Shown: piece by piece, positions 1-16,366 of the stretch | How positions within the stretch are numbered: the stretch's first letter is position 1 | Layout: each line of letters begins with the position of its first letter | DNA from: a bacterium | GTDB taxonomy: Bacteria; UBP15; UBA6099; JAJRTR01 | Assembly: GCA_024278215.1 (NCBI GenBank) | Contig: JAJRTR010000119.1 | Span: 1 to 16,366, forward strand | Reading direction: 5' to 3' | DNA length: 16,366 nt | Position numbers and translations under genes: made by a program | The notes under the pieces: generated by a model | Databases searched by the model: none | Told to the model about the DNA's origin: nothing | Seen by the model: only the letters and a program-made list of their open reading frames with translations

Positions 1-141
1 TGCTATTGTCCATAGCTGCGTTGTCGGCACAAAATCGTCCTCGACGTACTCTACAAGTACGCCTGCGAGGATTTTATACCTCCGCCTTGCTCCGAACAAT
101 TTCGCTCGACCTCGCTACGAACATAATTTTGCAATTGGCTC
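1..141 (-). repeat. Element family 1, copy A (truncated by window edge)
   Basis: This is the right-hand 141 bp of a 178-bp dispersed element that occurs four times in the window. Aligned to the complete copy at 5245-5422, exactly 37 bp are missing to the left of position 1. It ends in the terminal inverted repeat ...TTTTGCAATTGGCTC (127-141) and carries the central hairpin at 31-75. Strand is given so that the element reads GAGCC...hairpin...GGCTC with the TTCAGAGCAA-type segment before the hairpin. It lies upstream of, and divergent to, the gene at 252, unlike the other copies, which follow gene ends. No transposase is encoded. Confidence 0.9.
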
Positions 142-2587: not shown

Positions 2588-2620
2588 CCGCCCGCAGAGC
2601 GTTCACGGCAAAGAGCTAAC

Positions 2621-2798
2621 GAGCCAATCGCAAAATTATGTTCGTAGCGAGGTCGAGCGAAATTGTTCAGAGCAAGACGGAGGTGTAAAATCCTCGCAGG
2701 CATACTTGTAGAGTATGTTGAGGACGATTTTATGCCGACAACGCAGCTATGGACAATTGCAGCCGACCGCAGCAGAATCATGATTTTGCAATTGGCTC
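2621..2798 (+). repeat. Element family 1, copy B (complete, 178 bp)
   Basis: A complete element bounded by terminal inverted repeats: left GAGCCAATCGCAAAATTATG (2621-2640), right CATGATTTTGCAATTGGCTC (2779-2798). The two ends match at 18 of 20 positions. The 4-bp sequence TAAC flanks both sides (2617-2620 and 2799-2802), a possible target-site duplication. The central hairpin is at 2687-2731. It lies 33 bp after the stop codon of the preceding gene, in the sense direction. Confidence 0.92.
2687..2731 (+). other. Central hairpin of element copy B
   Basis: A 45-nt imperfect hairpin: AAAAT pairs with ATTTT, CCTCG with TGAGG, and CATACT with AGTATG, around loop TGTAG. Homologous hairpins are at 31-75 (copy A, inverted), 5312-5356 (copy C, inverted) and 16312-16356 (copy D). 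In the other copies the inner stem is CGTACT/AGTACG, so one G-C pair has become A-T on both arms here. Confidence 0.8.
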
Positions 2799-3088
2799 TA
2801 ACCAGCATATTTCACCAATGCGGGCCAAAACCCGGCAAAGCCGGAACCAAACATGCCGCATTTTCGTAGCCAAACAAATGCGGTTTGCGCACGGCACACA
2901 GAGTTTCATCGTCTACCTTGGAAACGCCTGTAACTGGAGTCTCCAGCTTTCACAGATTTCTTTTCAGCATTTCTTTACCATCCTGCGTAGCGTTTCAGTC
3001 GTAAGATACTATTGATAAACGCTATAATTATTCTACCCACACTAAATAGCGAAGAGGCAAAAACTTATGTGCAGGAAATGCCGTTTTT
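2799..3088. other. Gene-free spacer between convergent genes
   Basis: No credible gene. 2806-2830 is an inverted 25-nt near-copy of family-2 repeat sequence (9933-9957; one mismatch), so copy B appears to have inserted beside or into an old family-2 fragment. CCGCATTT (2856-2863) and AAATGCGG (2876-2883) form a perfect 8-bp inverted repeat with a 12-nt spacer. CCGGCAAAGCCGG (near 2832) could form a small hairpin. No clear U-tract terminator is seen for either flanking gene. Confidence 0.5.
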
Positions 3089-5244: not shown

Positions 5245-5422
5245 GAGCCAATTGAAAAATTCTGATTCTGCTGCGGTCGGCTGCTATTGCCCATAGCTGC
5301 GTTGTCGGCGCAAAATCGTCCTCGACGTACTCTGCAAGTACGCCTGCGAGGATTTTACACCTCCGCCTTGCTCTGAACAATTTCGCTCGACCTCGCTTCG
5401 AACATAATTTTGTAATTGGCCC
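5245..5422 (-). repeat. Element family 1, copy C (complete, 178 bp)
   Basis: A complete copy of the same length as copy B but on the opposite strand, bounded by GAGCCAATTG at 5245 and TTGTAATTGGCCC ending at 5422. The central hairpin is at 5312-5356, with a loop change (TGCAG instead of TGTAG in element orientation). It starts 5 bp after the methyltransferase stop codon (CTA, 5428-5430 on the + strand) in the sense direction, so a methyltransferase transcript would run straight into it. No target-site duplication is evident. Confidence 0.92.
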
Positions 5423-8232: not shown

Positions 8233-8618
8233 TCACAAAGAAATCCGAAAAACCGCGGTAACGCCTATTTTACGCCCGTTGCGGCGGCGATTCGGGATCG
8301 GTCGCATACCCGCATTTTGCGCAGGAAGGCCGGTGCGGCCGGCTGCTCCCTCACCACTCACTTGCCGCGCCTTGTATCATTGGCATTCTCATGATTTTCA
8401 ATCCGCATCGGCGGAATAGTGGGATAAGAAAAAGGTGGAATATAAAAAAACTGGTATCCGTTCACGGGTAACTGTTCGCAACAGTACGTCTGAAATTTCT
8501 GGAATGCAACGACTGTGTCGTTGCAACTGTGAAGAAGTCGCATTTCGTAAAAACTGATGTTTTTGCATTCCAGAATTTTCTGATAGTGCCGATGAAACTC
8601 CCCGGAGCAAGTCCGGGG
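8233..8618 (+). repeat. Repeat family 2, copy 1
   Basis: Starting right after the glycosyltransferase stop, this stretch aligns to 9776-10113. Shared landmarks are TCACAAAGAAA, GCGATTCGGGA, CGGTCGCATACC, GCATTTTGC, ACCACTCACTTGCCGCGCCT, GGCATTCTC and a closing CCCCGG hairpin (8600-8618: CCCCGGA, loop GCAAG, TCCGGGG). The left inverted-repeat end seen in copy 2 is missing. The central part (8420-8590) is poorly matched and holds its own nested palindromes. No gene is credible; the 88-codon frame on the minus strand (8358-8624) is explained by the repeat. Confidence 0.7.
8492..8580. repeat. Nested palindromes within family-2 copy 1
   Basis: An 18-bp arm at 8492-8509 is repeated in inverse orientation at 8563-8580 (17 of 18 match). 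Inside it, TGCAACGAC / loop TGT / GTCGTTGCA (8505-8525) is a perfect 9-bp hairpin sharing bases with the left arm. The two structures are therefore mutually exclusive, and the whole 89 bp could switch between them. Confidence 0.7.
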
Positions 8619-8635
8619 TATCAAAATCCGTGGGT

Positions 8636-8664
8636 TGTCATTCTGAGCGCAACGGAGAATCTCC
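8636..8664. repeat. Widespread intergenic motif TGTCATTCTGAGCG...GAGAATCTCC
   Basis: These 29 bp read as a variant of the 'GTCATTCTGAGCG(AAG)CGAAGAATCTC' phrase found between genes in many unrelated bacterial genomes. It directly follows the CCCCGG hairpin that ends family-2 copy 1. Recognition is from memory of the motif, not from a search. The rest of 8665-8804 shows no gene and no clear terminator for the DUF202 gene. Confidence 0.45.
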
Positions 8665-8804
8665 AGGTGTTTAAAGTATCATTCCCAATGCCATCCCTCC
8701 GTGAACAATTACAAAAGCTGAATACTGAATCAGGATGTGGGCTTCCGGATAATGGTCTAAAAACGTGAAGAGTTGTTATGACCCCTTCGTTCGGATATGC
8801 TCAC

Positions 8805-9530
8805 TTATGGAACGAAGAAATGCTTGAGTTTGCGGGCGAAATGGTGTTCGAGTTTCAGCGTTGCAAGAAAATTTTTCAGGCCGAAACCGGTGCACAACAC
8901 GCCGATAACTATCAACGAGATGTCGAAGATGGACCACTGGCTGCGACCGAAATAGCGCATCAGGCCGATGCCGAAGGTAGTGAAAGCGAGGCCGGTGCGG
9001 ATGAAGGCGAGTTCAGTCCTGCCCCTGGCGAGCAGAGAGCGGTAGCATGAAAGGTCTGTGCGGCTTGAAGCGAGACCGGTGCGGTCATTGGCAAGTCTGG
9101 TGCGTTTGTCGGCAAGATCTGTGCGTCCCTGTGAAAGGGCGGTGCGTTTACGTGCCATCCCGGTGCGCTCGTCTGCGAGGCTGGTACGCCTGTCGGCAAG
9201 GGCGGTGCGTTTTTCAGATAGGTCGGTACGTTTGCGCGCCATTCCGGTGCGGTCATCAGATAATTTTGTGCGGTATTCGGATAATTCGGTGCTTTTTCTG
9301 CTGGCTCTCGTCTGTTCTTTGGCTAGTGTGTTTCGTTCCTCTGCCAAGTGTGTGCGCACATCGGCGTTGTTTGTGCGGCGGTTGGCATATTCGGTACGTT
9401 TTTCGGCGAGTTTGATAAGGTTGGATGTAAGCCTGTTTTCCTCATGTGAAAGCTCTATAAGAGTCTTGGCGATCTGGGGAAGATCAACCCCCCTGCCACC
9501 TCCGGCTGCACGTTCATTTTCTTCAGTCAT
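8805..9530 (-). CDS. DUF202-type membrane protein with 20 heptad repeats
   Basis: A 241-residue protein in three parts. Residues 1-44 are a charged N-terminus. Residues 45-184 are 20 contiguous seven-residue units on the pattern R-T-x-L-A-x-x (RTALADR, RTSLADE, RTGMARK...). Residues 170-235 are a DUF202-like unit with two membrane helices (LAFIRTGLAFTTFGIGLMRYF and IFDISLIVIGVLCTGFGLKNF). DUF202 (YidH-like) proteins normally carry only one or two 'RTxLAxxRT' units before the first helix, so this is a repeat-expanded form. The array should be a long arginine-rich helix of roughly 20 nm if continuous. Function is unknown. The ATG has a perfect GGAGGT 8 nt upstream. The gene is flanked on both sides by family-2 repeats and is alone on its strand here. 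Confidence 0.85.
   Translation of the reverse strand: MTEENERAAGGGRGVDLPQIAKTLIELSHEENRLTSNLIKLAEKRTEYANRRTNNADVRTHLAEERNTLAKEQTRASRKSTELSEYRTKLSDDRTGMARKRTDLSEKRTALADRRTSLADERTGMARKRTALSQGRTDLADKRTRLANDRTGLASSRTDLSCYRSLLARGRTELAFIRTGLAFTTFGIGLMRYFGRSQWSIFDISLIVIGVLCTGFGLKNFLATLKLEHHFARKLKHFFVP
8979..9398 (-). repeat. 21-bp coding tandem array (20 units)
   Basis: This DNA encodes residues 45-184 of the DUF202 protein. On the + strand it is a degenerate 21-bp periodicity with GGTGCG/TGTGCG-type landmarks every 21 bases. The units differ in sequence but keep the frame, and the identical RTGMARK unit occurs twice four units apart (units 8 and 12), as does the following RTDLSEK/RTALSQG region in similar form. 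This suggests growth by duplication of several units at a time. Confidence 0.88.
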
Positions 9531-9764: not shown

Positions 9765-10113
9765 CCCGGATTTCTCACAAAGAAACCCGGAAAAATCACG
9801 ATAACGCATGTTCTACTGCGTTGCGTCGGCGATTCGGGAACGGTCGCATACCTGCATTTTGCACAAGAGGCCGGCTGCTCCCACACCACTCACTTGCCGC
9901 GCCTTGTGTTATATTACAGGCATTCTCCTGATTTTTGGCCCACATTGGTGAAATATGTGGGTTATTTATAACAATCAGCTTCCACAGGCATATTTGATTA
10001 TATGCTATGGAACTGTGCAGTCAAGGATTTTCATTCCTGTGTTCGAATGTTTCGTAGTGGTTATGAAATCCTGCTGTTTTGCCTGCCCCGGATTCCGTTG
10101 TGAGAAATCCGGG
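9765..10113 (+). repeat. Repeat family 2, copy 2 with perfect inverted ends
   Basis: This 349-bp unit is bounded by perfect 16-bp terminal inverted repeats: CCCGGATTTCTCACAA (9765-9780) and its complement TTGTGAGAAATCCGGG (10098-10113). Each end also folds on itself. The left end does so as CCGG/TTTCT with AGAAA/CCGG (9766-9790), the right end as CCCCGGATT (10086-10094) with AATCCGGGG (10106-10114). It encodes no transposase or other credible protein. It is a direct repeat of 8233-8618 and sits between the divergent DUF202 and EF-G genes. Confidence 0.82.
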
Positions 10114-13183: not shown

Positions 13184-13236
13184 CACGCACGCATGATGCG
13201 TGCGCACGCACGGATGTGCGCGAGCGTACACGTGTG
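13184..13236. other. Palindrome in an alternating purine-pyrimidine tract
   Basis: CGCACGCAT (13186-13194), a central G, and ATGCGTGCG (13196-13204) form a perfect 19-bp palindrome. It sits in about 50 bp of nearly alternating purine/pyrimidine sequence rich in CG, CA and TG steps. The outer TCTCAC (13181-13186 region) and GTGAGA also pair. The tract is not credibly coding. Confidence 0.55.
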
Positions 13237-13469
13237 AGAGCGAAAGGCTTTTTCCCAAGTCCCCACATTCGGTTATTTCGCTTTGTCACCTCCTGTCATC
13301 CGGTGGTTTCCTCTCCGTAAAACGACTCTGTTTTCCTCTGTGGCGCGTTTTCGTTTGTGTGGCCATAATATCCTTCCACTGACGTTTTGCAAGCCCTGCG
13401 GCGCAATTTGAGCGCCTCAGTTGATGTACACCTGGAAAAATAGGGGCAGTCACCTATTTACGAACATTT
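13237..13469. other. Gene-free stretch
   Basis: No credible gene. A 25-codon minus-strand frame (MATQTKTRHRGKQSRF...) is preceded by GGAAGG but has no further support. Composition is mixed, and no promoter or terminator can be assigned. Confidence 0.35.
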
Positions 13470-16245: not shown

Positions 16246-16366
16246 GAGCCAATTGCAAAATTATGTTCGTAGCGAGGTCGAGCGAAATTGTTCAGAGCAA
16301 AGCGGAGGTGTAAAATCCTCGCAGGCGTACTTGTAGAGTACGTCGAGGACGATTTTGTGCCGACAA
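16246..16366 (+). repeat. Element family 1, copy D (cut by window end)
   Basis: The first 121 bp of the 178-bp element, beginning with GAGCCAATTGCAAAATTATG and including the central hairpin (16312-16356). It lies 200 bp after the AOR-family stop codon in the sense direction, as copies B and C do for their upstream genes. The right end lies outside the window. Confidence 0.9.

Follow-up and report, generated by a model that had tools for sequence, protein, structure and literature searches.

What is the 178-bp sequence that occurs four times in a 16-kb stretch of bacterial DNA, and what could have moved it there? The window analyzed here, 16,366 nt in length, is an entire contig (G000:C93) of a 4.55-Mb draft genome in 207 contigs, with an estimated completeness of 95% and an estimated contamination of 1.26%. 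A first-pass annotation described an inverted-repeat element present in four copies, two of them complete, and proposed a MITE mobilized in trans. All four copies lie where that annotation placed them (Table 1), both complete ones are exactly 178 bp, and TAAC is indeed present on either side of copy B. The two partial copies are truncated as described, although the cause is the ends of the contig itself and not, as had been supposed, an arbitrary window edge. The inverted-repeat ends are likewise real; moreover, the entire element is an end-to-end imperfect palindrome. Identity among the four copies is 90–98% in the aligned parts.

Table 1. Positions of the repeated element in the window, with the ends and flanks of copy B
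Feature	Position	Strand	Remarks
Copy A	1–141	-	One TIR end only; other side lost at contig start
Copy B	2621–2798	+	Complete, 178 bp; sets reference orientation
Target duplication flanking copy B, left unit (TAAC, 4 bp)	2617–2620		
Target duplication flanking copy B, right unit (TAAC, 4 bp)	2799–2802		
Left terminal inverted repeat of copy B	2621–2637	+	GAGCCAATCGCAAAATT; family consensus GAGCCAATTGCAAAATT
Right terminal inverted repeat of copy B	2782–2798	-	
Copy C	5245–5422	-	Complete, 178 bp; inverted relative to copy B
Copy D	16246–16366	+	Shortened by contig end

Copy C is flanked by CTGTA and AGTC and hence has no intact duplication. It lies 5 bp from the stop codon of a methyltransferase ORF, and copy B lies 33 bp from the stop codon of a gene. 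The other genes of the window include those for transketolase, elongation factor G, aldehyde ferredoxin oxidoreductase, two membrane mannosyltransferase-like proteins and a DUF202 protein. No transposase is encoded in the window, in agreement with the first reading of the sequence, and the window contains no Rfam match at gathering thresholds. Two further features of the contig may be recorded. The N-terminal part of the DUF202 protein (8805–9530, minus strand) consists of short repeats of the type RT-x-LA-x-x, and a non-coding stretch contains an alternating purine-pyrimidine run (CACGCACGCATGATGCGTGCGCACGCACGGATGTGCGCGAGCGTACACGTGTG) at 13190–13250.

Abundance and form of the element

A profile derived from full-length copies was used to scan a 1.71-Mb sample of the genome. 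The sample was drawn by contig number and supplemented with two long contigs and a small number of selected ones, so that it is not strictly random. The scan gave 182 non-overlapping copies, of which 90 are full-length, 41 are cut by the end of a contig or stretch, and the remainder are partial. The density of 107 per Mb leads to an estimate of ∼485 copies genome-wide, and the element accounts for 1.5% of bases in the sample. Searches of the whole genome returned 462 first-look candidates with copy B as the query, and all 40 of the candidates scored were reported as matches; a second search returned 471. These numbers bear out the very high abundance that had been predicted from the window, and they show copies dispersed across the genome rather than confined to these few places. 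Contig termini fall inside the element in 28 of 111 starts and 16 of 72 ends examined (44/183 in total), compared to ∼1.5% expected from coverage. This excess indicates that the assembly breaks there, and the presence of the element at roughly one in four of the contig termini examined explains why the genome has assembled poorly. The true copy number may be higher than our estimate.

The length of full copies is nearly constant (177–179 bp in 76/88), and a TIR of ∼17 bp, GAGCCAATTGCAAAATT, is present at both ends across the family. Stop codons break up five of the six reading frames in the consensus, whereas the sixth stays open throughout its 58 codons. Copies diverge from the consensus by ∼7% at the median, and identity between a copy and its nearest neighbor within the sample has a median of 95.5% and a maximum of 98.9%, indicating that the family spread over a period of time and that some copies arose fairly recently. 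Derivatives with internal deletions, down to 46 bp, retain both ends and a duplication. One copy is itself interrupted: at L034:18534–18640 it contains a MITE-like insert of ∼110 bp with ends GGGGGGTATG / CATACCCACC and an apparent 8-bp duplication, TGCAAAAT.

Target sites

Identical 4-bp sequences flank 49 of the 78 complete copies with good ends, compared to 1.9 (maximum 7) when the flanks were paired by shuffling. Target duplications were also sought in a larger set, and 4-bp duplications were found in 55/86 full copies. Other lengths are near background, with three 5-bp matches and a number of 3-bp matches equal to background. The flanking sequence has a GC content of 31%, versus 51% for the genome, and the reconstructed target is AT-rich with a weak symmetric consensus, A-N-W-Y-[4 bp]-R-W-N-T, in which a strict central TA is absent. 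Two copies (L116:15469 and L117:3331) sit inside members of other repeat families, and the uninterrupted paralogues of the repeats that were hit hold the 4 bp once. These paralogous empty sites show that insertion is precise.

The genome also contains other dispersed repeats. A second family (TAACCCGCATATTTCACCAATGCGGGCCAAAA ... GCGCGGCAAGTGAG ... GGCGATTCGGGATCGGTC) occurs in the window at 8265–8440 and 9783–9964 and in the right flank of copy B (2799–2830), and has ∼30 relatives in the 1.7-Mb sample; copies of the 178-bp element insert into it. A third, at 8529–8707 of the window, has relatives in L036, L108, L116, L150 and L163, and also surrounds a copy of the element in L180.

IS1182-type ends and the search for a partner

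With up to one mismatch allowed, the 16-bp end occurs 552 times in the source genome, compared to 0 for a reversed control pattern. The same search gave 0 occurrences in six other genomes of the phylum and 0–4 in each of 379 other genomes. The full element was found in none of the 40 other genomes searched, six of them from the same order, nor in the phages, plasmids and viral contigs searched.

Similar ends are carried by insertion sequences (ISs) of the IS1182 family related to ISUnCu17, which have ends GAG(G/C)CNNTTGCAAAA and 4-bp duplications. Two ISs from Lentisphaerae genomes that carry the end sequence, one of 1510 bp (L257; ends GAGGCAATTGCAAAAGT / GAGCCAATTGCAAAACT) and one of 1397 bp with similar ends (L255), encode proteins with DDE_Tnp_1 and DUF772 domains, for which the best NCBIfam match is IS1182, below the curated cut-off; IS5 and IS982 models, too, are among the NCBIfam hits to these partner-type ISs. 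Clean 4-bp duplications are absent from L255 and L257 despite their having the closest ends, and L189 shows a 7–8 bp duplication in a palindromic target. A scan of 385 other genomes revealed, in G060, a 1531-bp IS whose IS1182-like transposase is broken; its ends are GAGCCATTTGCAAAATTA / GAGCAAATTGCAAAATTA. Plasmid relatives identified by tblastn are annotated as IS1182, including ISUnCu17, and three of them have ends with the same layout, GAGCCTCTTGCAAAA, GAGGCTCTTGCAGAA and GAGGCACTTGCAAAA, together with the 4-bp duplications ATGA, TGGT and TTAG. In all, the ends of the element match those of IS1182-type ISs at 12–15 of 16 positions, on both sides and in several species (seen in L257, L255, L282, L283 and L285). 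An ISUnCu17-type element on the Aeromonas caviae plasmid NZ_AP026405 (L283; ends GAGCCTCTTGCAAAA / GAGCTTCTTGCAAAA, with a 4-bp duplication) resembles the 178-bp element in layout and at most end positions. ISUnCu17-type ISs differ in being autonomous, 1.4–1.5 kb long and equipped with a transposase, and beyond the ends we saw nothing that they have in common with the element.

An autonomous element with the same ends, which the first-pass annotation had suggested looking for, was sought in the source genome, and only C-terminal IS1182 fragments came to light. The ∼95% complete draft yielded no intact transposase of IS1182 type carrying these ends. Three loci match PF01609, and the ends of the element flank none of them; PF05598 is without a match. 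With PF13751 and the IS1182 model, nothing more than short C-terminal fragments was detected (contigs C188 and C62), apart from weak hits of the IS1182 model to two of the PF01609 genes. Three such fragments (L063:1576–1692, L064:1522–1731 and L072:10213–10422; contigs C188, C62 and C9) are 75–79% alike, the rest of the gene was not found, and none is bounded by the ends as a unit. The L063 fragment adjoins a copy of the element and was considered as a relic of the partner. This candidate was rejected, as the copy has its own CATA duplication and the other copies of the fragment run on into unrelated sequence; the adjacency is probably due to chance. Long-range pairing of ends with duplications in the genome sample yielded no autonomous element. 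End pairs more than 300 bp apart with 4-bp matches were chance, contig-edge or two-copy combinations, and unpaired ends with other interiors were traced to ordinary genes. A search with the L255 transposase gave no match in the source genome and matches in 4/6 genomes searched alongside it, all Lentisphaerae.

Competing explanations and known relatives

A hairpin-forming repeat of this kind could also be maintained by selection for a regulatory or processing role, acting like a terminator or being cleaved by RNase, as has been suggested for certain other bacterial repeats. The consensus folds into a single end-to-end 178-nt RNA hairpin (–80.8 kcal/mol, z = –8.6), which would be very stable if transcribed, copies B and C lie close to stop codons, and 75/81 copies are intergenic, compared to 18% for random positions, by crude ORF-based gene calls. 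By the same crude calls, however, copies are no nearer to gene 3′ ends than random intergenic points, and convergent and divergent gaps are occupied about as expected. What is seen for copies B and C in the window is thus not a general rule, and gene context does not support a terminator function. Nor are pairing and covariation clearly above shuffles. Over 45 full copies, pairs are retained in 94.7% of cells, versus 94.6% with the 3′ letters shuffled, and five hairpin pairs have changed on both sides, versus 3.1 expected. Double-change cells are the sole raised measure of five (8 versus 3.3, a value reached in 5/500 shuffles), with the caveat that related sequences may exceed shuffles without structure. 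We found no good evidence for selection on the fold and, from the covariation and 3′-end tests, no sign of a host function. As the end sequence is also missing from the six other genomes of the phylum, we regard a selected regulatory element as very improbable. Hardly any weight attaches to an artefact, a duplication of larger segments or contamination of the bin. The draft is indeed broken inside the element, yet copies are present within contigs of up to 127 kb, boundaries are sharp and bear duplications, and contamination is estimated at only 1.26%; the flanks of the copies are unrelated, so the copies are not segments of longer duplications. Fixed length, common ends, duplications, unrelated intergenic sites, empty sites and the lack of a gene of its own instead identify the element as a MITE.

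A different question is whether the MITE derives from some other IS family (IS5, IS701, IS630 or similar), with ends that came to look like those of IS1182 by convergence. Duplications of 4 bp are known in other IS families too, the source genome has three PF01609 transposases of other types, and the IS5 and IS982 models match the partner-type ISs. On the other hand, all three PF01609 loci lack the ends, whereas the match to IS1182-type ISs covers, in several species, most positions on both sides; among the plasmid relatives, the closest bear an IS1182 annotation; and there is no strict TA target, unlike for IS630 or Correia elements. Derivation from another family therefore seems unlikely, and we consider the element to be, very probably, a high-copy IS1182-type MITE. 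The assignment to IS1182 is suggested by sequence comparisons, namely the ends, the duplication length and the relatives in other genomes.

Mobilization in trans, as the first-pass annotation proposed, is consistent with every test made. In this model, the end repeats would have been recognized by an IS1182 transposase acting in trans, which would then have excised or copied the element and integrated it at a target cut with a 4-bp stagger. The autonomous copy may since have been lost from the lineage, leaving C-terminal relics only, or may be missing from the assembly. Loss is the simplest account of its absence, although a draft assembly could be missing it. The family is apparently orphaned of its transposase and, with the autonomous copy lost or missing, has probably become immobile or almost so.

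MITEs derived from IS1182 have been described before. Methanosarcina acetivorans has two with ISMac2 as partner, one of 160 bp (14 copies, 26-bp IR, 4-bp DR) and one of 169 bp (7 copies) (PMC3852290). Likened by description, the ISMac2 MITEs resemble the present element in length, long TIRs and IS1182 assignment, and one of them in its 4-bp duplication; they differ in having 7–14 copies and a known autonomous IS, compared to ∼485 copies and no intact partner here. Orphan MITE-like repeats in archaea have been explained by loss of the partner IS (PMC3852290). ISPse1, an IS1182 element, has 16-bp IRs and a 4-bp DR (PMC3281130). MITEPye1 of Paracoccus yeei, with an 18-bp TIR (PMC11578231), is similarly non-coding and intergenic, has IS1182-like ends and direct repeats, would form a long hairpin if transcribed, and is thought to be mobilized in trans. 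However, it is present in 1–3 copies per chromosome, and the same species contains intact related IS1182 elements. Correia/NEMIS of Neisseria and RUP of pneumococcus are likewise small, hairpin-forming, high-copy intergenic MITEs (PMC2229807), but they have a TA target and other ends, whereas the present element duplicates 4 bp and has no strict TA. The family described here is new, and it stands out for its copy number and its lack of an intact partner. It adds a case of unusually heavy MITE load in a sparsely sampled bacterial phylum, with an orphan MITE tied to a transposase subgroup through its ends and duplication length.

The most interesting thread, in our view, is that the end sequence is common to several phyla. 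Short elements with an identical 17-bp end and unrelated interiors are present in Chlamydiota, Spirochaetota, Lentisphaerae and Acidobacteria genomes (loci L219, L221, L226, L228, L231, L245 and L249). Short paired elements among the GTDB matches listed include those of Simkaniaceae (163 bp), Sphaerochaetaceae (167 bp), Victivallaceae (211 bp), Victivallis (113 bp), Lentisphaera (102 bp) and Bryobacterales (128–132 bp), and several among the matches listed have 4-bp duplications. Single unpaired 17-bp matches in GTDB genomes include chance ones, and most of the loci around GTDB end matches have no transposase. In five such genomes the 17-bp end occurs 22 to 122 times (122 in the L257 genome), compared to 0 for the control. 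The interiors do not match the present element; the best nhmmer E value was 0.044, for ends only. Thus, across several other phyla, the 17-bp end leads to unrelated families of MITE-like elements.

One possibility, which we put forward tentatively and would not yet favor, is that a single IS1182 transposase subgroup with the near-invariant end GAGCCAATTGCAAAATT crossed many phyla and, in each host, repeatedly bred unrelated MITE families that outlived the transposase. If so, the present family, whose hundreds of copies are accompanied by no intact transposase, would represent an extreme case of an orphan, and the combination of unrelated interiors and identical ends would suggest that MITEs arise by capturing arbitrary host DNA between ends. 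MITEs would then not originate solely by internal deletion of an IS. Were all these families driven by a single subgroup, this case would make it possible to study the formation of MITEs and their persistence once the transposase is lost. As a minor observation, the short elements of Bryobacterales lie in a palindromic GGAGTACTCC target.
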